From assembly GCF_000010985.1 (NCBI RefSeq), contig NC_013939.1, positions 1,641,501-1,705,500 of the forward strand: a stretch of DNA of 64,000 nucleotides, given 5' to 3'. Positions within the stretch are counted from its first letter, which is position 1, and the number at the start of each line of letters is the position of its first letter. The position numbers and the translations under genes are program-made. Source of the DNA: Deferribacter desulfuricans SSM1 (GTDB lineage: Bacteria > Chrysiogenota > Deferribacteres > Deferribacterales > Deferribacteraceae). Shown in pieces: positions 1,892 through 42,034 of the stretch. Below the pieces are notes generated by a model. It had not been told where the DNA came from. It worked only from the letters and a program-made list of their open reading frames with translations, and searched no databases.

Positions 1892-3847
1892 TTATTTCTC
1901 CAAACCTATCATTGCCATTCTTACACATCTCAAACATCTTGTAGCTTCTAAATAAGCTTGACTTTCAGTATACGGTTTTTCAATCTCTTCAAAATTTCTA
2001 ACTCTCACTTCTGGAGGCAATTTTTCTTGATGTACCCTTGGAATCGTATGAGTTTCCTGAATCCTTTCGTTTTTATCAAATACCTTATTTCTATAAAGTG
2101 TCAATTCCAACTTCTCTTGATCAGTCAAATAAGGCTCACCTTCCATCAAATATCTATTGATCATCTTAGCAGCCCATCTTGCAGCACCAATAGCTTTAAC
2201 TACAGTTGCTGGTCCCCATTCACAGTCACCAGCTGCAAAAATACCCGGTACGTCAGTCATATACAAATCTTCTTTAACAGCTATCGTATTCCACCTTGTA
2301 ACTTTTATACCATCCTCTTCACTTAAAAAGTCTAGATCAGGGAACTGTCCAATAGCTGGTATAATCGTATCACATTCTATTACAAAATTAGACCCTGGAA
2401 TTGGCTCAGGTCTTCTTCTACCAGATTCATCAGGCTCACCAAGTTGCATTCTAACACATTCAACACCAACGAGCTTTCCATTTTCAGCTATAAGTTTAAC
2501 AGGATTACATAAAAAGTGAAACTTTACACCTTCCTCTTCCGCATCAGCCACTTCATAATCCTCAGCTGGCATTTCTGCTCTTGACCTTCTATATACAAGA
2601 TTAACATCTTCACTACCCAATCTCAACGCAGTCCTTACACAGTCAATAGCTGTATTACCACCACCAACCACAACAACTCTATTACCTATTTTTACCTCTT
2701 CACCTAAAGCAACTCTTCTCAAAAACCCAATACCGCTATCCATTACTCCTTCATAACCTTCTTTCTCACCCTCAACACCCATATCACGACTTTTAAAAGC
2801 ACCAATTGCAAGCAAAACTGCATCATATTTCTGCTTTAAATCTTTAAGAAAAATATCTCTACCAAGCTTTGTGTTATATTGTATTTCTACTCCTAAAGAT
2901 TGAACAATCTCTACTTCTCTTCTAAGCAAATGTCTTGGTTGTCTATAATCAGGGATACCAACTGCTACCATCCCTCCAGGTTCTGGCAACATTTCATAGA
3001 TTTTTACCTGATGCCCCACAATTGCAAGATAATATGCAGCAGTTAAGCCAGCAGGGCCTGCACCCACAATAGCAACCTTTTTACCGGTATCTTCTTCTCT
3101 AATCCTTTCAATATCAGGCTCTTTATGATGATAATATTCATAATCCCATGGTGTTCTTTTCAATACCATAATATTCACAGGATCATCGATAAGCCCTCTC
3201 CTACAATTTGACTCACATGGGTGAGGACAAACTCTACCGCAAACACCAGGAAGAGGCATCGTTGTTCTAATAATTTTTAAAGCTTCAAGATATCTATGAT
3301 CTTTTATCGCTTCAATAAACTCTGGAATTTTTACATTTGCAGGACATCCAGCTGTACAAGGTGCTGTAAGATGTTTAACATAATTCAAATCTTTATTTTC
3401 TGCAGAATCCAAAGTTTCGAACTTATCTTCCATAAAATTTTTCAAAAACTGTCTTACTGGCACAGTTGAAGTAGGCGCAACAGTACATTTAGCTGAAACA
3501 TAAATAGAATAAGCTATATCATAAGCTAATTCTATATCCTCTTTTTTGAATCCATCATTTTTAATCTTTTGAAGTTGTTCAGCCAAAATCCTTGTACCCA
3601 TCCTACCTGGGAAACATCTACCACAGCAACCATAACTACTTATCTCAAACATATACTCAGTCAAAACATCAAGGATATTGACATCTTTATCAAAAACCAA
3701 AAACCCGTTCCAATTTACAAAAACTTTTAATTTTTTACCGTTAAAATTCTCATCAATTTTGATAGGAGCTTCACTCCACTCCTCATATGGTTTTTCTCTA
3801 TTATCAATAAGTTGATCATTCCAAAAACCGTAGTAAACTTTTGCCAT
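1892..3847 (-). CDS. sfrB: SfrB-like NADPH oxidoreductase: NuoF [4Fe-4S] domain fused to GltD-type flavoprotein
   Basis: 651 residues. Residues about 60-145 resemble the C-terminal [4Fe-4S] domain of NuoF (CGRCFPGRMG at 75-84, C121 in a CTVAP segment), but the third NuoF cysteine is Gly here and an extra C74 precedes. Residues 160-215 carry the N-terminal cluster cysteines of the glutamate synthase small subunit family (C164, C168, C203, C207, C211, C215). A first dinucleotide fold (GAGPAG, about 252) should bind FAD and a second (VVVVGGGNTA, 381-390) NAD(P)H. The end has a CLRC motif. This architecture and the adjacent NuoG-like gene match SfrB of the Geobacter NADPH:Fe(III) oxidoreductase. 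It is probably cytoplasmic, passing NADPH electrons to SfrA. GGAGAGG precedes the ATG. An NfnB-like or complex I input module is an alternative. Confidence 0.75.
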   Translation of the reverse strand: MAKVYYGFWNDQLIDNREKPYEEWSEAPIKIDENFNGKKLKVFVNWNGFLVFDKDVNILDVLTEYMFEISSYGCCGRCFPGRMGTRILAEQLQKIKNDGFKKEDIELAYDIAYSIYVSAKCTVAPTSTVPVRQFLKNFMEDKFETLDSAENKDLNYVKHLTAPCTAGCPANVKIPEFIEAIKDHRYLEALKIIRTTMPLPGVCGRVCPHPCESNCRRGLIDDPVNIMVLKRTPWDYEYYHHKEPDIERIREEDTGKKVAIVGAGPAGLTAAYYLAIVGHQVKIYEMLPEPGGMVAVGIPDYRQPRHLLRREVEIVQSLGVEIQYNTKLGRDIFLKDLKQKYDAVLLAIGAFKSRDMGVEGEKEGYEGVMDSGIGFLRRVALGEEVKIGNRVVVVGGGNTAIDCVRTALRLGSEDVNLVYRRSRAEMPAEDYEVADAEEEGVKFHFLCNPVKLIAENGKLVGVECVRMQLGEPDESGRRRPEPIPGSNFVIECDTIIPAIGQFPDLDFLSEEDGIKVTRWNTIAVKEDLYMTDVPGIFAAGDCEWGPATVVKAIGAARWAAKMINRYLMEGEPYLTDQEKLELTLYRNKVFDKNERIQETHTIPRVHQEKLPPEVRVRNFEEIEKPYTESQAYLEATRCLRCVRMAMIGLEK

Positions 3848-3885: not shown

Positions 3886-4037
3886 AATTTTGATTTATAA
3901 CACAAAAATATGATATTGTCTATATTAAAAAACAACTATTTATAAAACCTTTTTATAAAAAACAACAAACTTTGTTATAATATGCTATAATATATAAAAG
4001 ATGAAATAATATGGCACAATAAGAATAGGAGGTTACA

Positions 4038-4769
4038 ATGAAACAGGTTAACTTATTTTTAACATTATTACTATTTTTACTTTATCCATTAGTTTCAACT
4101 TCAGGTGTTATTTTAACAGCACACCAAAATAACACAACAACAAAAGATTATATTGAAGGAAAATGGTTAAAGAGTGTTACTGGTAACTTTGAGTTCATTT
4201 TTAATGGCTCTAAGAAAACAGCGTATTTAGTAAATCATAAAGAAAAATCTGTCACAATCACTACACAAGAAGATTTGGCCAAAATGAAAAAATTTAGTGC
4301 AATGATGGGAAACAGTTTTGGCTATACCAACCAAAAACCACCTAAAATAACAACTAAAGTAGTAAAAATCGGAAGAAAAAGAATAGCAGGTTGTAATACC
4401 ACTGGCTATAAAATATATTCCGATAACAGCGATGTTGAAGAAGTTTACTTCTGCAATGATTCAAAATTAATAAAAAGTTTTAACACAGCTTTAGCAAATG
4501 ACTTAAAGGAGTTTTCTTCTTTTAACGAATCTCAGGACATATATAATTATAATTTGAAAAAATATGGTATACCTTTTCTTATTAAAGATGTAAAACGAAA
4601 CCAAATTATTTATGAGGTAAAAAACGTTGAATATAAAAAATTAAAAAGTTCAACTTTCAGTTACCCCAAAAATTACAAAATAATTAGAACAGCTGATATG
4701 TTTAAACAAATTCCACAAATACCACAAGGTTTGCCAGGGAATATCCCAAACATACCAGGTCAATATTGA
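4038..4769 (+). CDS. Exported protein of unknown function, DUF4412-like
   Basis: 243 residues with an N-terminal signal peptide (MKQVN, then a Leu-rich hydrophobic stretch to about residue 22). The remainder is soluble, basic and predicted beta-rich, with two cysteines (ACG-CNTTG and YFCND segments) that could form a disulfide in the periplasm. The pattern of a KK...VNH...K segment followed by an RKRIAGC...Y.IY segment recalls the DUF4412 family, whose function is not established. The tail is Pro/Gln/Ile-rich (IPQIPQGLPGNIPNIPG), like a flexible C-terminal extension. AGGAGG lies 6 nt before the ATG. A TATAAT (3986-3991) sits upstream without a clear -35. The gene is divergent from sfrBA and separated from the thi operon by its riboswitch. 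Confidence 0.6.
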   Translation: MKQVNLFLTLLLFLLYPLVSTSGVILTAHQNNTTTKDYIEGKWLKSVTGNFEFIFNGSKKTAYLVNHKEKSVTITTQEDLAKMKKFSAMMGNSFGYTNQKPPKITTKVVKIGRKRIAGCNTTGYKIYSDNSDVEEVYFCNDSKLIKSFNTALANDLKEFSSFNESQDIYNYNLKKYGIPFLIKDVKRNQIIYEVKNVEYKKLKSSTFSYPKNYKIIRTADMFKQIPQIPQGLPGNIPNIPGQY

Positions 4770-8221: not shown

Positions 8222-9568
8222 ATGGATGTTGTCACACTGTCAAGGATCCAATTTGCAATGACAGCCATGTTTCATTTTATCTTCGTACCATTAACACTTG
8301 GTCTTTCTATCCTTGTTGCTATTATGGAAACACTTTATGTCAAAACCGGTAACGAACTCTATCTGAGGATGACAAAGTTTTGGGGTAAGCTATTTCTTAT
8401 CAATTTTGCTCTTGGAGTAGTTACCGGTATCACAATGGAATTCCAGTTTGGTATGAACTGGGCTGAATATTCAAAATACGTGGGTGATATTTTTGGTGCT
8501 CCACTTGCTATCGAAGCAACTCTCGCATTCTTCTTAGAATCCACATTCTTGGGTATCTGGATTTTCGGTTGGAAAAAGATATCTAAAAAAGCACATGCTT
8601 TTGCTATCTGGATGGTTGCTATCGGATCTAATATCTCAGCATTATGGATATTAGTAGCAAACGCCTGGATGCAGCACCCAGTAGGTTATGTTTTGAGAAA
8701 TGGAAGAGCTGAAATGACAAACTTTTTTGCTCTTTTCTCTAGTTATGCAATTACAAAATTTTTCCATCAAATCTTAGCAGGTTATACAGTTGGTGCTTTT
8801 TTTGTTATGGGTGTATCAGCTTATCATTTGTTAAGAAAGAGCAATTTGGAGTTTTTCAAAAAATCTTTTAAAATTGCAGCAACATTTGCACTAATCGTAG
8901 CTTTTGCAGAAATTGTTGTAGGTGACTGGCATGCATATGAAGTTGCAAAAACTCAACCAACAAAACTTGCAGCAATGGAATCTCATTGGGAAACTCAAAA
9001 AGGAGCTCCAATGTATCTATTGGTATTTCCAAATGAAGCAAAAGAAAAAAATGCTATAGAACTTTTGCCTATACCAAAACTTTTAAGCTTCTTGGCAATC
9101 CATGATTTTAATGGGGAAGTAAAAGGTTTAAAAGATTTCCCAAAAGATGAAAGGCCACCGGTTTTAATAACATTTTTAAGCTTTAGATTGATGGTAGGAT
9201 TAGGGATGTTATTTGCATTGCTAGCTTTAATAGGTTTTTACCTTTCTAAAAAGGATAAACTTGTTGATACAACACTTTTTCTTAAAATAATGCTCTATAT
9301 GATCCCAATCCCTTACATAGCAAACTTCTTAGGTTGGACAGTAGCTGAAGTGGGAAGACAACCATGGATTGTTTATGGTGTACTGAAAACAGCAGATGCA
9401 GTATCAAAATCGATATCAACTAGTCAAGTATGGATGTCACTTTTTGGATTTGTTGCTTTTTACAGTTTGCTTGGTGTTATAGATATCTATCTTTTGACAA
9501 AATATGCAAAAAAAGGGCCTGAAGAATCTGCTATATCAGCTAAAAAAGCTGAAGCAGTAACAGCGTAA
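8222..9568 (+). CDS. cydA: Cytochrome bd ubiquinol/menaquinol oxidase subunit I
   Basis: 448 residues with multiple membrane helices. Haem ligands and key acids are in place: H18 (haem b595 type), E98 and E106 (GAPLAIEATLAFFLEST), H182 (FFHQILAG, haem b558) and the GWTVAEVGRQPW segment with the quinol-site region. The loop between the middle helices is short compared with the 522-residue E. coli protein, so this is a short Q-loop bd oxidase. It reduces O2 to water with quinol electrons at high affinity, suiting O2 scavenging in an anaerobe. Strong AGGAGG precedes the ATG. Confidence 0.96.
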   Translation: MDVVTLSRIQFAMTAMFHFIFVPLTLGLSILVAIMETLYVKTGNELYLRMTKFWGKLFLINFALGVVTGITMEFQFGMNWAEYSKYVGDIFGAPLAIEATLAFFLESTFLGIWIFGWKKISKKAHAFAIWMVAIGSNISALWILVANAWMQHPVGYVLRNGRAEMTNFFALFSSYAITKFFHQILAGYTVGAFFVMGVSAYHLLRKSNLEFFKKSFKIAATFALIVAFAEIVVGDWHAYEVAKTQPTKLAAMESHWETQKGAPMYLLVFPNEAKEKNAIELLPIPKLLSFLAIHDFNGEVKGLKDFPKDERPPVLITFLSFRLMVGLGMLFALLALIGFYLSKKDKLVDTTLFLKIMLYMIPIPYIANFLGWTVAEVGRQPWIVYGVLKTADAVSKSISTSQVWMSLFGFVAFYSLLGVIDIYLLTKYAKKGPEESAISAKKAEAVTA

Positions 9569-9580
9569 GGGAGGTTAGTT

Positions 9581-10609
9581 ATGGTATATCAAATTATATG
9601 GTTTGCATTATGGGGGCTTTTGTGGGCAGTTTATTTTATGCTTGATGGTTTTGACTTTGGTGCTGGAATTTTACACCCCTTTTTAGGAAAATCTGATGAA
9701 GAAAAAAGGATGATTATAAATACATTAGGTCCAGTTTGGGATGGTAATGAAGTTTGGCTTATCACAGCAGGTGGAGCAACATTTGCTGCCTTCCCTACAA
9801 CCTATGCTTATATGTTTAGTTATTTATATACTCCACTTTTAATTATACTTTTTGCTCTGATATTTAGAGGTGTTGCATTTGAATTTAGAGGAAAAGGGAA
9901 AAGTGAACAATGGAAGAAACTCTGGGATGTAGCTATTTTCGCTGGAAGCCTAATCCCAACAATTCTATTTGGCGTAGCTTTTGGAAATATCTTTCAAGGG
10001 TTACCAATTGATGCAAATGGATATCATGGTAGCCTAGCCTATCTCTTAAACCCTTATGGAATCCTTACTGGATTGTTTTTCTTACTTCTATTTTTAGAAC
10101 ATGGTGCTTTATGGCTAGCAATTAAGACAACTGGCGAATTACCAATAAGAGCTAAAAGCGTAGCTAAAAAAGTATGGCCACTTCTTGTTGCCGTAGCAGT
10201 CATATTCTTAATCTTTTCGGCATTCAAAACTCATCTGTATGACAATTATTTGAAAAACCTTGTATGGTTTATAGTTCCAATAATTGCAGTAATTGCATTA
10301 TTAGCGATATTCTTTTTTACAGAAAAATCACCTGTTAAAGCATTTTTTGCATCCTGTATTACGATTTTAGCAGTAGTTTTCACAGGGATAATTGGTTTAT
10401 ATCCAAATCTTATTCCATCAAGTATTGATCCAAAATACAGTTTAACAGCTTTTAACTCATCTTCTAGCCCATATACTTTGAAAATAATGACAATTGTTGT
10501 GATTATATTTGTGCCAATAGTGCTGCTATATCAGATCTGGACATATAAGATATTTAAAGATCCAGTAACACCAGAAGAAATCAATGATCCAGAAGTAGAA
10601 ACTTATTAA
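9581..10609 (+). CDS. cydB: Cytochrome bd oxidase subunit II
   Basis: 342 residues with eight or nine predicted membrane helices. Family features include WFALWGLLWAVYFMLDGFDFG at the N-terminus, GPVWDGNEVWLI and a C-terminal GLYPNLIPSS segment before the last helix. It partners CydA, 12 nt upstream, in the inner membrane. GGGAGG lies before the ATG. No CydX-like or cydDC genes follow; a strong hairpin terminator ends the unit. Confidence 0.96.
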   Translation: MVYQIIWFALWGLLWAVYFMLDGFDFGAGILHPFLGKSDEEKRMIINTLGPVWDGNEVWLITAGGATFAAFPTTYAYMFSYLYTPLLIILFALIFRGVAFEFRGKGKSEQWKKLWDVAIFAGSLIPTILFGVAFGNIFQGLPIDANGYHGSLAYLLNPYGILTGLFFLLLFLEHGALWLAIKTTGELPIRAKSVAKKVWPLLVAVAVIFLIFSAFKTHLYDNYLKNLVWFIVPIIAVIALLAIFFFTEKSPVKAFFASCITILAVVFTGIIGLYPNLIPSSIDPKYSLTAFNSSSSPYTLKIMTIVVIIFVPIVLLYQIWTYKIFKDPVTPEEINDPEVETY

Positions 10610-36848: not shown

Positions 36849-37529
36849 TTATTTATAGCAAATTGTTGCATCACATATATTAAAAGTCAAAGGGTTAAAC
36901 TCCACCTTTTTAAACCCAGCACTTAAAATCATTTTTTCATATTTATCCTTTTTTGGAAACTTATAAACTGAGTCTGGTAAATACTCATATGCACTTCTAT
37001 TGCCAGAAATTAACCCACCTATGAATGGAAGTACTTTTGTAAAATAAAATCTATAAACCTTAGAAAAAAATTTATTATCTGGCTGAGAAAATTCTAATAT
37101 GCAAGCTTTCCCCCCCTTTTTCAAAACTCTATACATCTCTTTCAATCCCTTTTCCTTGTCAGTCACATTTCTAAATCCAAAAGCTATTGTAATATAATCA
37201 AAAGACTCATCTTTAAAAGGTAAAAAATGAGCATCTGCACAAGTAAGAGGTAAATCATTTAACTTCTTTTTAGCAATCATAAGCATATTAAAGCTAAAAT
37301 CACCTCCTATTACATTACACTTTACCTTCATCTTTTTTAATTCTAACAACATATCACCTGTACCACAGGCAAGATCTAATATCCTTGAGCCTTCATTAAT
37401 TTTCAATAAAGATATCGCTTTTTTACGCCAATAAACATCTCTTCTAAAGGATAACAATCTATTTAAAAGATCATATTTGCCGGCAATACTATCAAACATA
37501 CCTTGGATTTTTTTCGATTGCTCATTCAT
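36849..37529 (-). CDS. menG: Demethylmenaquinone methyltransferase (UbiE/MenG)
   Basis: 226 residues. The N-terminus FDSIAGKYDLLNRLLSFRRDVYWR is diagnostic of UbiE/MenG, followed by the SAM site ILDLACGTGDML and the GFRNVTDKEKGLKEMYRVLKKGG segment. It adds the last methyl group to menaquinone. GAGG precedes the ATG. It lies just downstream of the PP2C gene and leads into the ubiD-type gene. Confidence 0.93.
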   Translation of the reverse strand: MNEQSKKIQGMFDSIAGKYDLLNRLLSFRRDVYWRKKAISLLKINEGSRILDLACGTGDMLLELKKMKVKCNVIGGDFSFNMLMIAKKKLNDLPLTCADAHFLPFKDESFDYITIAFGFRNVTDKEKGLKEMYRVLKKGGKACILEFSQPDNKFFSKVYRFYFTKVLPFIGGLISGNRSAYEYLPDSVYKFPKKDKYEKMILSAGFKKVEFNPLTFNICDATICYK

Positions 37530-37567: not shown

Positions 37568-39130
37568 TTATTTAAAATATAAGTACAAACAGGTAAAATC
37601 ATCTTTTTGTTTTTCTTTATCAAACACTAATTCTGTATAAAATTTATCGATGAAATCTTTATCATAGTTTTTCATTTCTAACAATCTGTTTTTAATATCA
37701 TTATATTCTATATATTCTGTAATCCCATCAGAATAAATAAATAATTTATCCCCACTATTAATTTTGCATTCAAAATAACTATACTTTTCTTCAAAAATAC
37801 CTATAGGGAGATATTCAGACTTAAGTTCTTTGCACTCCCCATTACTTATTAAAAATGCAGGCTCATGACCAAGAGAAATATAACGAAACAATCCATCATT
37901 TTTATTATAATAAGAGAAAAAAGCCGTAATAAATTTTCCATCAAAATTCTTTTTACAAAGGATGCTATTTAATAACTCCAATTTCTCAATAAAATTTTTT
38001 ATATCAACACCAACCTCTATAAAAGTACTTAAAACAACTGTCAAGATAGATGCAGAATACCCTTTGCCACAAACATCAGCAATAGTACTAAAATATCCAT
38101 CATCGATAACTCTAAAATCTAAAAAATCACCCCCTGCCATTTTAGCAGGTCTATTTATCCCTGTAGCAATTAAATTTTCATCTTCAAAATCTATTCTCTG
38201 ACTACTGAATTTATTTAATATTTCTACAGTATAATTTATTTCTTGCTCTTGTAGTTTATAGTTTACAATTTCTTTATGTCTAATGGCATTTTTCAAAGCA
38301 ATTCTTAAAATAGAGCTTATAATCTCAGCAAATTCTTTATCAGGTATAAAATCATACTTAATATTAAATAAAACCACATATATATCAAATTCCTCTATGT
38401 ATATTATAAATATATTGTTTATATTAAATTTATCGCAACTTATCCCACTATCTACAAAAATAGTATTTTTCTTTTTAATTAAAAGATCTTCTATTGGTGA
38501 GTCCTCTACCTTTATCAATTTTAGATCATCTGAATCTAAACCTATAAAGTTAAACTTCCCATTATATTTGACAAAGGCTGCTTCAGCTGAAAATGTATCC
38601 ACAAAAAAAGCTAATGATTTAATTATCACTTCATCTTCATCTAAAATGCTTAAAATGAAATCCGCATTTTTAATAAATTCTATTTTTTGCTGATATAAAA
38701 CAAACGCCTTAAGCCTACTTTCTTTTGCCATTAATTCATAATATTTGTAACCAAACGATGAAAAAAACGGTTTAAAATTTTTAACAGCGGATAAATCATC
38801 CAATTTCAAAACAACTGTAAAAAAAACTTTATTTTTGAATTTAACATTTATAAGGATATCCCCTTCGATTTTCTCATCAAAAGAATCAATCTTTATTTCA
38901 CCTTCATTAAAAATACCATAATTATAAACATCTGATATATCGATAAACGATTCAAATTGGTACCCTTCATTGTAAATGGACGCTAATATCCCCCTTTCTT
39001 CTTTCAATACGATTAATTTTTCAGGATTAAAACATTTAAAAAAACTTATTAAATTTTTTTCAAAACCAGATAAACTGTCAGACTTAAATAAATTTGAAAG
39101 GTAATTGTAAATATTAGATAAATTCTTCAT
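37568..39130 (-). CDS. SpoIIE-type PP2C protein phosphatase with unknown sensor region
   Basis: 520 residues. The C-terminal half (about 310-520) is a SpoIIE/RsbU phosphatase: MAGGDFLDF (D335), IADVCGKG (D352), LGHEPAFLI, YSDGITEY and KDDFT supply the metal-binding acids. The N-terminal 300 residues are soluble and alpha/beta, possibly two degenerate GAF-like units, with no identifiable ligand site. It should dephosphorylate an anti-sigma antagonist or similar partner. Its start overlaps the HDOD gene by 17 nt, making it the last gene of the signalling operon. No anti-sigma kinase gene is in the window. Confidence 0.8.
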   Translation of the reverse strand: MKNLSNIYNYLSNLFKSDSLSGFEKNLISFFKCFNPEKLIVLKEERGILASIYNEGYQFESFIDISDVYNYGIFNEGEIKIDSFDEKIEGDILINVKFKNKVFFTVVLKLDDLSAVKNFKPFFSSFGYKYYELMAKESRLKAFVLYQQKIEFIKNADFILSILDEDEVIIKSLAFFVDTFSAEAAFVKYNGKFNFIGLDSDDLKLIKVEDSPIEDLLIKKKNTIFVDSGISCDKFNINNIFIIYIEEFDIYVVLFNIKYDFIPDKEFAEIISSILRIALKNAIRHKEIVNYKLQEQEINYTVEILNKFSSQRIDFEDENLIATGINRPAKMAGGDFLDFRVIDDGYFSTIADVCGKGYSASILTVVLSTFIEVGVDIKNFIEKLELLNSILCKKNFDGKFITAFFSYYNKNDGLFRYISLGHEPAFLISNGECKELKSEYLPIGIFEEKYSYFECKINSGDKLFIYSDGITEYIEYNDIKNRLLEMKNYDKDFIDKFYTELVFDKEKQKDDFTCLYLYFK

Positions 39131-40148
39131 ACTCTGTATTAACTACCATCTCTATACGAGGATATAAATCATAAAAATTCAAATTCATATCTTTTGCTAC
39201 ATATTCAACATCCTTTTCAATATCTTCAGATTTAGAAAGTAAATTAGCATAATAAACACATTTCTTATACAAATCATCACTTTTTATATGATGCTCTCTC
39301 ACTGCATCTACTATTTTATCACTAATATTCCATTTTTGTAAAATAATTGCAGATACCTCAGCATGATTTATCCCAAGCATCTTTGTCTCTTCATCCACAC
39401 TTGATATCTGAGTAGTTAGAAAATCTACTAACACTATTTTACCTAAATCGTGCATTAAACCAGCTAAATATAAACCACCTTTATCATCAAATCCTATTAA
39501 TGATTCTAACTCTTCACAAATACGTGCAACTAAAAAAGAGTGTAACCATAACTTTTTAGGGCTAGTGCCATAAACTGAAAGATTTTTGTTAAACAGTTCA
39601 AAACTAAATGCAGCAAGTGCTATATTTTTGATTGTGTTCATCCCAAGTAAAACAGCAGATCTCTCAACGCTTGTAATCTCTTTACGAATACCATAAAATG
39701 GTGAATTTACAATTTTCAAAACTTTACCAACAAGCCCCTGATCCTTCTTTAGCTCATCAATAATCTCTTTAAATGTGGACTTGTCATTATTTGTAAGTGA
39801 AATCAATTTCTGAATAACAGTAGGCAAAGCTGGTAAACTTTCTGCTTTAGCAATTACTTTTGATTTTATAATTTCATAATCAAAATCGTTGTCTTGAACT
39901 TTTTTTTGAAAAACATTCAAAAGCTTTTCTCTAGTCAAAGGCGGGAAAATTACCCCGCCTAATTTATAAGACTTTAACTTAATCAGCAAATCTTTATTTT
40001 TAGCTCTAAGATAAACATAAGTTTTTTCATCAAACTTATCAATTTTAGTTATATCATCAAAATCATCAACTACATAAATATTAATATCATCCTTAGATAT
40101 TCCTAATTCTTTTAACAAACTTTCTAATTCTAAATCTTTCTTATTCAA
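39114..40148 (-). CDS. HDOD-domain signalling protein with receiver-like N-terminus
   Basis: 344 residues. Residues 1-85 have the alternating fold of a degenerate receiver (VVDDFDD near 26-32). Residues about 98-300 form an HDOD domain: LPALPTVIQKL, VLKIVNSPFYG, SVERSAVLLGMNTIKNIALA, then an intact HD pair in MHDLGK (H233, D234). HDOD proteins act in bacterial signalling, often with two-component or cyclic-di-GMP circuits, and usually lack enzyme activity. Start is TTG after AAGGG. It overlaps the PP2C gene and follows a glycine-zipper gene by 9 nt. Confidence 0.82.
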   Translation of the reverse strand: MNKKDLELESLLKELGISKDDINIYVVDDFDDITKIDKFDEKTYVYLRAKNKDLLIKLKSYKLGGVIFPPLTREKLLNVFQKKVQDNDFDYEIIKSKVIAKAESLPALPTVIQKLISLTNNDKSTFKEIIDELKKDQGLVGKVLKIVNSPFYGIRKEITSVERSAVLLGMNTIKNIALAAFSFELFNKNLSVYGTSPKKLWLHSFLVARICEELESLIGFDDKGGLYLAGLMHDLGKIVLVDFLTTQISSVDEETKMLGINHAEVSAIILQKWNISDKIVDAVREHHIKSDDLYKKCVYYANLLSKSEDIEKDVEYVAKDMNLNFYDLYPRIEMVVNTEYEEFI

Positions 40149-40157
40149 AATTTACCC

Positions 40158-40514
40158 TTAATATCTAACTTTTATTAAATTTGCAGTGGCAGACAATGAG
40201 TCCCCTTTTTTCTCAGTGATAATTGTTGGCATTGCTACTTTAACCTTATTATTGTCGATTTCTACCAATGCTGTTGCTTCATAGACGCCATAAACAGCTC
40301 CAACAATAGCGCCTGCTGCTGCACCATAAGTAATATATTCTAAATGGTCACCAGGATCTTCTTTAAAAGCTAAAAGTGCTGCACCGATAATTGTCCCTGT
40401 TAAAGCACCATAAAACGTATCTTGTAAAATTACACCACCTCTAGTTTCAGCTTTTACCACTGAAAAGGTACTAAATACAAACAAAATAGCCACTACTAAT
40501 GCAACTTTTTTCAT
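40158..40514 (-). CDS. Small exported glycine-zipper protein
   Basis: 118 residues. Signal peptide about 1-22 (ending VVKA), then two hydrophobic Gly/Ala-rich segments, TFYGALTGTIIGAALLAF and YGAAAGAIVGAVYGVYEA, with GxxxG spacing of glycine-zipper proteins that insert in or pack against membranes. The C-terminal part is a short beta-like tail. No enzyme motif. It is lodged between a CheY-like gene (4-nt overlap) and an HDOD gene, so it may be the envelope component of that signalling unit. Confidence 0.6.
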   Translation of the reverse strand: MKKVALVVAILFVFSTFSVVKAETRGGVILQDTFYGALTGTIIGAALLAFKEDPGDHLEYITYGAAAGAIVGAVYGVYEATALVEIDNNKVKVAMPTIITEKKGDSLSATANLIKVRY

Positions 40515-40867
40515 TTTATCCCCCTTATTTTATTTATTAAATCCTTTGGACTAAAAGGCTTTGTAAGATAATAAGCAGCTTTTAAATCCTTCCCTTTTTC
40601 AATAGACTCCATATCTGCTTTTGCAGTTAAAAAAATGATAGGTATATCTTTCAATTTTTCACTACTTTTCAATTCCCTTGCTGCCTCAAAACCATCCATC
40701 ACAGGCATATTTATATCTAAAACAATCAAATCAGGATTCAAACTCAAAGCAAGCTCAACAGCCTCTTTGCCATTGCTGGCCTCATATACATCAAATCCAT
40801 TCTTTTTTAAATGCAATGAAACAATTTTCCTTAACCTCAACTCATCATCAGCAATAACAATCTTCAT
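40511..40867 (-). CDS. Single-domain response regulator, CheY-like
   Basis: 118 residues, a stand-alone receiver with all catalytic positions: D7 and D8, phospho-acceptor D51 (LIVLDINMP), T81 and K103 (LTKPF). No output domain, so it must act by protein contact. It overlaps the kinase-like gene upstream and the glycine-zipper gene downstream by 4 nt each, pointing to a fixed partnership. Confidence 0.92.
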   Translation of the reverse strand: MKIVIADDELRLRKIVSLHLKKNGFDVYEASNGKEAVELALSLNPDLIVLDINMPVMDGFEAARELKSSEKLKDIPIIFLTAKADMESIEKGKDLKAAYYLTKPFSPKDLINKIRGIK

Positions 40868-41421
40868 TTTATCCTAACCTCTAAACATTCCTTGCTTTTA
40901 TATAATAAAACACCATAATTTTCCATAATTTTATTAATATCAAATAACACTTCAGGTATATCTTTGACATCTGAATGAATAAAAACTGATTTTTTCTTAA
41001 TCTCAATAAGTAATTTATTTTCTTGATACTTTATAGCCTCTGCAATAATTATTGATAATAAATTTTTAACAACAATCAGATTACATTCTGCATTACCATC
41101 TTCTATAATTTTAACATCTATAAACACATTGTTTGATTTAAAATTATTAAATACTTCAGCTAATTTTTTAACTTTTTCTCCTAAACTAAATACCTTAAAG
41201 TTTTCATTAAAGTATTTACCATCAAAGGAATCAAGTAAAACCCCCAAAATAGCATCATAACAATCTATGAGAAAACTTGAAAAGTTAATTGAATCTTTAA
41301 TATCTAAAAATTCCTGCTCAAAATCTAGCAGTTCGGTGCCACTAACTATAATCGCTAGCTGCGTCCTGATGTTGTGTAAGAAAAAATTATTAATCTTTTT
41401 AATTAACTCAATATCATTCAT
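40864..41421 (-). CDS. Histidine kinase-like or phosphotransfer protein, degenerate
   Basis: 185 residues, no membrane segment. The N-terminal helical pair contains FFLHNIRTQLAIIVSG (H16), which resembles the DHp phospho-acceptor box (HDIRTPL-like). The C-terminal half has the topology of an HATPase domain (NLLSIIIAEAIKYQENK in N-box position) but lacks recognisable N, G1 and G2 ATP-binding motifs. It could be a phosphotransferase of the ChpT kind that passes phosphate to the overlapping CheY-like protein. This assignment rests on faint similarity and context. Confidence 0.5.
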   Translation of the reverse strand: MNDIELIKKINNFFLHNIRTQLAIIVSGTELLDFEQEFLDIKDSINFSSFLIDCYDAILGVLLDSFDGKYFNENFKVFSLGEKVKKLAEVFNNFKSNNVFIDVKIIEDGNAECNLIVVKNLLSIIIAEAIKYQENKLLIEIKKKSVFIHSDVKDIPEVLFDINKIMENYGVLLYKSKECLEVRIK

Positions 41422-42034
41422 TTTTTCTAAATAACCTACTCAAAAAACCTTTCTTCATATCTACAATTTTATCTTTTAGAGCCTCTTTAGGATACCCATG
41501 TTCTATCGCTTTTTTATAATATTGGTTTGCTACTTTGTATATCTCCCTTTTATAATATACATCGCCTAAAAGCACATAATTTTCTGGATCCCAAGGCTCT
41601 TCCCTAATTAATTCAAGACATAACTCTTTTGCATCAAAAAGTCTTCTGGGCTTTAAAAGTAAACACTTTACAATCCATTTTTTATATTTTGGATTGTTAT
41701 CCTTTCTATAAGCTTCCTCAAAAGCATTTAAGGCATTATTAACATCACCTTCACGAAAGTATTTTACACCAACGGCATAAAGCTTTCTTGCAATCTGTTT
41801 ATAATTTTCCTTCTTTTCGTTAAAAATTTCTTCTATATCAGGAGCTTTATCACTATCTTTATTTTTTATCAAATAATTATAAGCTTTTGAAATCGCAACA
41901 AATTGGTCACTTTTCCCATCGTTTACATCAGGATGATATTTTTTGACAAGCTCTAAGTATCTTCTTTTTATATCATTTTTTGTAGCAGTAGAATCCAACC
42001 CCAAAATTTTTAAATAAAAAGATTTTTTATCCAT
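41414..42034 (-). CDS. DnaJ-domain protein with TPR repeats
   Basis: 206 residues. An N-terminal J domain (about 4-62) carries the HPD motif (KKYHPDVND) needed to stimulate DnaK. It is followed by an acidic linker and two or three TPR-like helical pairs (ARKLYAVGVKYFREGD, VLLGDVYYKREIYKVANQYYKKA). It should recruit Hsp70 to a particular client. It overlaps the kinase-like gene by 8 nt, so it may be the first gene of the signalling operon that follows. Confidence 0.85.
   Translation of the reverse strand: MDKKSFYLKILGLDSTATKNDIKRRYLELVKKYHPDVNDGKSDQFVAISKAYNYLIKNKDSDKAPDIEEIFNEKKENYKQIARKLYAVGVKYFREGDVNNALNAFEEAYRKDNNPKYKKWIVKCLLLKPRRLFDAKELCLELIREEPWDPENYVLLGDVYYKREIYKVANQYYKKAIEHGYPKEALKDKIVDMKKGFLSRLFRKNE

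Follow-up and report, generated by a model that had tools for sequence, protein, structure and literature searches.

A conserved DHP-REC-HDOD-PP2C gene block of one bacterial order, with a candidate ATP-less phosphotransferase

A compact gene cluster in Deferribacter desulfuricans SSM1 raises the question of how a kinase-shaped protein without ATP-binding motifs might take part in signalling. The cluster lies in a 64,000-nucleotide stretch of DNA (the window; contig NC_013939.1, positions 1,641,501 to 1,705,500), which is a portion of a 2,234,389-base contig in a genome of two contigs. An earlier note, made from the sequence alone, had described six overlapping or abutting open reading frames (ORFs) encoding a DnaJ-TPR protein, a 185-residue kinase-like protein (named DHP here), a lone receiver (REC), a secreted glycine-zipper protein, an HDOD protein and a SpoIIE-type phosphatase (PP2C). 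All six were found on the minus strand, and the reported spacings were confirmed as overlaps of 8, 4 and 4 nucleotides, then a 9-nucleotide gap, then a 17-nucleotide overlap. Comparison with relatives showed that the conserved unit is four genes, DHP-REC-HDOD-PP2C, plus ubiE, and not all six. From sequence, structural models and analogy, we consider it somewhat probable that the four genes form a phosphorelay node of a single order in which DHP acts as an ATP-less phosphotransferase.

The conserved block in the window has the following features.

40864..41421, minus strand: DHP, a predicted DHp hairpin followed by a truncated HATPase-like domain
41374-41376, minus strand: codon of DHP His16
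40511..40867, minus strand: REC, a CheY-like single-domain receiver (Pfam Response_reg, E 2.7e-29)
40715-40717, minus strand: codon of the REC phosphoacceptor Asp51
39114..40148, minus strand: HDOD protein (Pfam HDOD, E 3.9e-47), with the HDOD domain at residues 105-287 and a degenerate receiver-like N-terminus at about 1-94
37568..39130, minus strand: PP2C (Pfam SpoIIE, E 3.8e-27), with a predicted tandem-GAF-like region at residues 1-318 (38177-39130) and a SpoIIE-type phosphatase domain at 343-517
36849..37529, minus strand: ubiE/menG-type quinone methyltransferase (Pfam Ubie_methyltran, E 5.7e-66), directly after PP2C

Conservation of the gene block

Gene order was examined in a sample of 50 genomes of the host phylum, and the surroundings of all 34 DHP-bearing genomes were fetched. 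A search with the single DHP sequence gave matches in 29 of 39 relatives at E <= 0.01. With a 29-row DHP alignment, the gene was placed in 34 of the 50 genomes, all within the host order and spread across seven of its families; the remaining matches were weak and lay in longer ORFs (378 residues and up) that are probably kinases. REC was downstream of DHP in 34/34 genomes, with orientation and order preserved (33 by scripted rule and G007 by inspection). HDOD came next in all 32 genomes where the contig extends far enough, and PP2C and then ubiE followed in each of the 31 where both were readable. The contig of G022 stops within PP2C, and for the short contigs of G018 and G048 the HDOD-PP2C-ubiE genes were found on a different contig.

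Outside the genus, DHP is 17-26% identical to the window protein, and the gene order has therefore been maintained through long divergence. Because it is conserved across seven families, the linkage of the four genes plus ubiE exceeds chance. The genes flanking the block are poorly kept, with a HAD gene upstream in 10/34 genomes and DnaJ in 2/34. The earlier argument from close linkage to a single pathway thus gains support for DHP, REC, HDOD and PP2C, whose orthologues were not scattered in relatives, and loses it for the DnaJ-TPR and glycine-zipper genes. The gene set described in that note had also left out ubiE. A metabolic gene, ubiE, is thus tightly tied to a signalling block; it adjoins PP2C in G025 too, where DHP and REC are missing.

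DHP was not found in two genomes from outside the order but within its class, nor in three from outside the class but within the phylum. Wider searches, the first two without a known-positive genome in the set, gave weak negatives: 0/35 genomes reached via HDOD matches at E <= 1e-5, 0/395 genomes of one phylum at E <= 1e-6, and 1/295 genomes of another phylum at E <= 1e-6, the single match lying inside a 557-residue ORF. Eighty HDOD-gene loci from other phyla contained no DHP, and at these loci PP2C was the best match of an ORF once (L134, where the REC match was equally good).

Fold and sequence of DHP

The window DHP matched no Pfam family, and its single NCBIfam match, to EnvZ, was weak (E 0.0011; 17.8 bits against a cut-off of 415). 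The AlphaFold2 model, made with 29 sequences, showed a hairpin of two helices and, after it, an alpha/beta domain (pLDDT 90.8, pTM 0.87). The best match to this model in the PDB was DivL (4q20; Z 13.8, root-mean-square deviation (rmsd) 3.2, 180 of 185 residues), and Foldseek returned many kinases, with a phosphotransferase-receiver complex (4qpj) at rank 44. By sequence alone, the DHP profile matched solved kinases weakly (E 0.08). Aligned by hhalign with eight kinases of the same order, the DHP family gave E 1.8e-6 and a probability of 90%; His16 paired with the kinase histidine and Glu128 with the second N-box Asn, and the alignment ended ahead of the ATP lid and the G2 box. DHP is predicted to have the DHp-plus-catalytic fold of a histidine kinase. 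Structure prediction, proposed earlier as a check on the 185-residue protein, thus returned a DHp-HATPase fold and not an unrelated one.

The absence of recognisable ATP-binding motifs, also reported in the earlier note, was borne out, as DHP lacks the N, G1 and G2 boxes of an active kinase. The N-box Asn is replaced by Glu (E128) in 29/29 members. Motifs were counted against 105 sampled HATPase-bearing (kinase-type) ORFs from the same order. A D.G.G motif was present in one of the 29 DHP members and in 92/105 kinase-type ORFs, and a loose G2 pattern in 3/29 and 105/105, respectively, in a comparison where the kinase ORFs are longer than DHP and chance matches hence favour kinases. The H-box also differs: H[NH]xRT was found in 27/29 DHP members and 0/105 kinase-type ORFs, and a kinase-type H[ED]xR-like box in 2/29 and 80/105. 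No DHP member of the 29 matched HATPase_c at E <= 1.

His16 is present in 27 of the 29 members and Thr at position 20 (H+4) also in 27, with Asn in the other two; F14, R19, D53, D56 and E128 are kept in all 29. The H+1 position holds Asn (21 members) or His (8 members). None of the 29 members matched ChpT (PF10090, which we take to be the Pfam family of ChpT), Spo0B or Hpt (PF01627) at E <= 1, and the model is unlike the monomeric four-helix Hpt with its HxxKG motif. Cross-matches at E <= 1 involved 17 Pfam families, most commonly the dynein assembly factor domain DAAF9_N (6/29 members, best E 0.00095); these were taken as chance. The predicted model does have the ChpT-type layout of a DHp hairpin, a phosphoacceptor His and a degenerate Bergerat domain without an ATP lid. 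Sequence and model together suggest that DHP is probably a former histidine kinase that does not use ATP, and no kinase chemistry would be expected of it.

Partner proteins

Pfam upheld the earlier domain calls of DnaJ-TPR, REC, HDOD and SpoIIE. In REC, residues D7, D8, E9, L10, R11, L12, R13, K14, D51 and K103 were invariant (25/25), position 81 was Thr in 22/25 and Ser in 3/25, and the motif ADDELRLRK was invariant in an aligned sample of 13. By these residues REC is a CheY-type single-domain response regulator with an intact active site. The receiver of one genome, G005, carries DDEFKLRK where others have DDELRLRK.

The HD-type residues of HDOD (H203, H233, D234, H262, H286 and H287) were likewise invariant (25/25). 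Its N-terminus had been called receiver-like. Aligned with the lone-REC family by hhalign, this region gave E 5.8e-4 at a probability of 29%, with residue 26 opposite Asp51, so that profile support for the call is weak. Its receiver match in the PDB was also weak (3cg0, E 0.21), ranking below a designed protein (E 0.025), and the place of the acceptor Asp is held by Glu in 19/25 members and by Val in the window protein. By alignment, the window HDOD ORF, which starts at TTG, is missing about 20 N-terminal residues of most relatives, including the onset of the receiver-like part.

PP2C has four Asp residues (D335, D352, D468 and D511) that were invariant in 27/27 members and are taken as metal-binding. 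In the window protein SpoIIE alone scored above the Pfam cut-off, and the N-terminal part, searched in 19 members, gave no Pfam match better than E 0.007 and no receiver among the matches. The AlphaFold2 model of residues 1-318 (pLDDT 87.3, pTM 0.54) showed two GAF-like domains linked by a long helix. The best match of this model in the PDB was the PDE5A tandem GAF (Z 14.7, rmsd 6.1, 283 residues aligned), and phytochromes scored about 11-13. The N-terminus of PP2C is thus predicted to be a tandem-GAF-like sensor region.

Partial blocks and hybrid kinases

Sister groups with HDOD-PP2C alone or REC-HDOD alone are natural deletion experiments. Three genomes of genus g14 (G025, G027 and G045) keep HDOD-PP2C, with ubiE next in G025. 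DHP was not found in them and no REC orthologue was found at E <= 1e-30; DHP and REC are jointly absent from this genus. In G025 a HIT-like gene (read from its translation), which flanks DHP in many relatives, lies directly upstream of HDOD. Neither DHP nor PP2C was found in the searches of G003, G010 and families f9 and f10. In G023, HDOD-PP2C lies at the start of a contig and DHP could not be judged. Four drafts of 160 to 330 contigs (G011, G012, G036 and G049), in which no DHP or PP2C was found, were set aside from interpretation.

Hybrid kinases, the likely donors in the relay proposed below, were compared in the same groups. In family f7 genomes that keep DHP, a C-terminal REC was present in 3/12 (G014) and 4/19 (G007) analysed kinases; in the f7 genomes without DHP and REC (G025 and G027), REC-bearing kinases numbered 0/5 analysed in each. 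G005, of family f5, had no hybrid kinase among six analysed, some of its ORFs being cut by contig ends. Hybrid kinases as obligate partners of DHP were nevertheless rejected: the pattern fits f7 and f5 and fails in G010, as described below.

Two kinases with an N-terminal REC, L262 (G014, 2247-3527, 426 residues) and L289 (G007, 2142-3398, 418 residues), were mutual best matches. At 1e-10, BLAST matched L262 to none of the five kinases each of G025 and G027, and L289 had weak matches only (60 bits). This REC-kinase is another candidate absentee alongside DHP and REC.

Outputs of PP2C were sought among partner-switching proteins. STAS domains occurred in 48/50 genomes and HATPase_c_2 in 50/50, including genomes without the block's PP2C. 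An RsbV/RsbW partner switch was therefore not assigned as the PP2C output. Among the matches listed, the PP2C-less G003 and G010 had small stand-alone RsbW-like ORFs (170-172 residues), and g11 genomes with PP2C had ORFs of 269-272 residues only.

Proposed relay and alternatives

In the relay that we propose, DHP, acting as a dimer, would take a phosphoryl group onto His16 from a receiver, either the REC of a hybrid kinase or the lone REC, and hand it to another receiver. Whether as giver or as taker, the lone REC would take part in this exchange, and hybrid kinases are the likely donors. Its operon partners would then sense through contact whether the lone REC is phosphorylated, HDOD serving as an adaptor and the tandem-GAF PP2C as the enzyme. 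At the end of the His-Asp signal, a protein phosphorylated on Ser/Thr, possibly an antagonist of the STAS type, would be dephosphorylated. We favour phosphotransfer between DHP and REC because a kinase shape without ATP boxes, always beside an intact lone receiver, resembles Spo0B, ChpT and PhyT.

Several observations weigh against this proposal. In two DHP proteins of family f4 (L043 of G004, 9393-9959; L054 of G018, 3904-4467) the His16 column holds Phe or Arg; the residue after it is His, and H+4 is Asn. The N-terminus of HDOD matches receivers only weakly and has no acceptor Asp. Genome G005 (96% complete) keeps REC-HDOD (L248, 7873-9323, next to a DAHP-synthase-like gene read from its translation) and has no DHP and no PP2C, and REC can therefore exist without DHP. 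G010, although without DHP and PP2C, has at least six kinases that carry a REC after the kinase domain, so that a link between DHP and hybrid kinases does not hold generally. The distribution of RsbW-like kinases does not follow that of PP2C, and these comparisons picked out no partner kinase or PP2C substrate. Finally, Pfam detected Hpt at E <= 1e-6 in 1/21 REC-bearing kinases scanned (eight kinases of G017 were left out), a G010 hybrid; an HxLKG-like motif was read by eye in 3/5 hybrid-kinase tails; and, according to a domain survey (PMC4558063), more than 90% of Deferribacteres species have Hpt proteins. Since ordinary Hpt domains occur in these bacteria, DHP is not the sole phosphotransferase at hand.

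A fuller version of the relay is less probable. It would be an independently evolved pathway of one order: an ATP-less, kinase-fold phosphotransferase and a lone REC would pass a His-Asp signal via HDOD, acting as adaptor, to the tandem-GAF PP2C and so drive Ser/Thr dephosphorylation, and ubiE would link the operon to quinone biosynthesis. PP2C regulators linked to respiratory state are described in mycobacteria (RsfSR; PMC10950880). Beside the placement of ubiE this precedent is suggestive, no more.

The strongest alternative, which we consider unlikely, is that DHP works on the lone REC mainly as a phosphatase or sink: REC would be phosphorylated directly by classical kinases and switched off by DHP, a kinase of which only the phosphatase half is left. 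Kinases use an acid at H+1, and Thr or Asn at H+4 is linked to HisKA phosphatase activity. DHP lacks the acid, having Asn or His at H+1, and has Thr or Asn at H+4; the f4 proteins without His16 keep the Asn. The REC-HDOD pair of f5, without DHP, also suits such a role, and one REC plus one DHP would require no third partner. Retention of His16 in 27 members speaks for phosphotransfer instead, though phosphatase activity alone does not always require the His. Stand-alone proteins of like shape (ChpT, Spo0B and PhyT) are, moreover, described as phosphotransferases (PMC3433190, PMC5898713).

It is improbable that DHP is a DivL-like pseudokinase scaffold or reader, which would bind REC and alter another protein without chemistry at His16. 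DivL, an atypical kinase, is the top structural match, the His column is incompletely conserved, and the invariant F14, R19, D53, D56 and E128 are partly distant from the H-box. A scaffold, however, fits poorly with an H-box kept in 27/29 members and a receiver acceptor site kept in 25/25. Least probable is mere co-location in a conserved chromosomal stretch with no single pathway: ubiE is linked as tightly as the signalling genes and subsets exist (REC-HDOD in f5, HDOD-PP2C in g14), but the immediate outside neighbours are not kept and g14 lacks both DHP and REC.

Comparison with known systems

To our knowledge, stand-alone kinase-derived phosphotransferases are known in few lineages (Spo0B, ChpT and PhyT). 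If the proposed relay is correct, DHP would add a further phosphotransferase family, encoded beside its receiver and probable outputs, and offer a compact test case for the conversion of a kinase into a phosphotransferase. It would also bear on the role of HDOD proteins in signalling and on the coupling of His-Asp relays to PP2C phosphatases.

ChpT, of Caulobacter and other alphaproteobacteria (CckA-ChpT-CtrA/CpdR), shares with DHP the DHp hairpin, a degenerate Bergerat domain without a working ATP lid and a phosphoacceptor His in the first helix. ChpT does not autophosphorylate with ATP (PMC3433190). The two differ in their H-boxes and show no sequence-family match, and DHP, found here in one bacterial order, is encoded with a lone REC, HDOD and PP2C. 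The Spo0F-Spo0B pair of Bacillus sporulation likewise combines a lone receiver with a dimeric kinase-derived phosphotransferase (PMC3433190, PMC5898713). Unlike Spo0B, DHP adjoins its own receiver gene, has no Spo0B family match and has no Spo0A-like output gene in its block.

PhyT (formerly PhyP) of Sphingomonas is described (PMC5898713) as a degenerate kinase acting as a phosphotransferase downstream of the single-domain receiver SdrG, a role similar to that proposed for DHP. PhyT is membrane-anchored with an HRxxN box, whereas DHP is small with an H[NH]xRT box. HptB of Pseudomonas aeruginosa is a phosphotransfer protein of another family than DHP. The HptB-HsbR-HsbA pathway resembles our proposal in leading from hybrid kinases through a stand-alone phosphotransferase to a target controlling a PP2C (PMC6482189). 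HsbR fuses REC, PP2C and an anti-sigma/kinase domain, whereas in the present block REC is encoded by a gene of its own and the PP2C has tandem GAF-like domains.

DHP most likely works like this known kind of protein, a kinase-derived phosphotransferase, but by sequence stands outside the known families. Searches of the open PMC literature, a coverage that mostly excludes subscription journals, found no description of this HDOD/phosphotransferase/PP2C gene set. The HDOD/PP2C setting of such a phosphotransferase appears new.

Flanking and inserted genes

Two further ORFs of the window cluster lie outside the conserved block.

41414..42034, minus strand: DnaJ-TPR gene (Pfam DnaJ, E 6e-13; TPR, E 7e-8), upstream of DHP
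40158..40514, minus strand: secreted glycine-zipper-like protein with sub-threshold Pfam and NCBIfam matches, an insertion between REC and HDOD in the host genus

DnaJ-TPR occupied this position in 2/34 block-bearing genomes. Near-full-length homologues were found elsewhere (in drafts, on another contig) in ten further genomes of families f2, f3 and f8, among them G003 and G010, which are without DHP and PP2C. At E <= 1e-8, nothing was found in f4, f5, f7, f9 and f10, f6 gave a match to the DnaJ domain alone in long ORFs of three genomes, and 24/34 block-bearing genomes had no near-full-length homologue. Because homologues sit elsewhere, including in genomes without the block, DnaJ-TPR is a neighbour and not a component. 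Its membership was ruled out by this scatter over other families, and the idea of an Hsp70 recruiter in the pathway is not supported.

The envelope component fared no better. The glycine-zipper gene was set aside as a member of the block on its occupancy of 2/34, in the same two genomes as DnaJ-TPR, a count that covers the block only. The call itself stands in part: the protein matched Gly-zipper_OmpA at 4e-4, but below threshold (20.6 bits against a cut-off of 27). Both genomes with the gene between REC and HDOD belong to the host genus.

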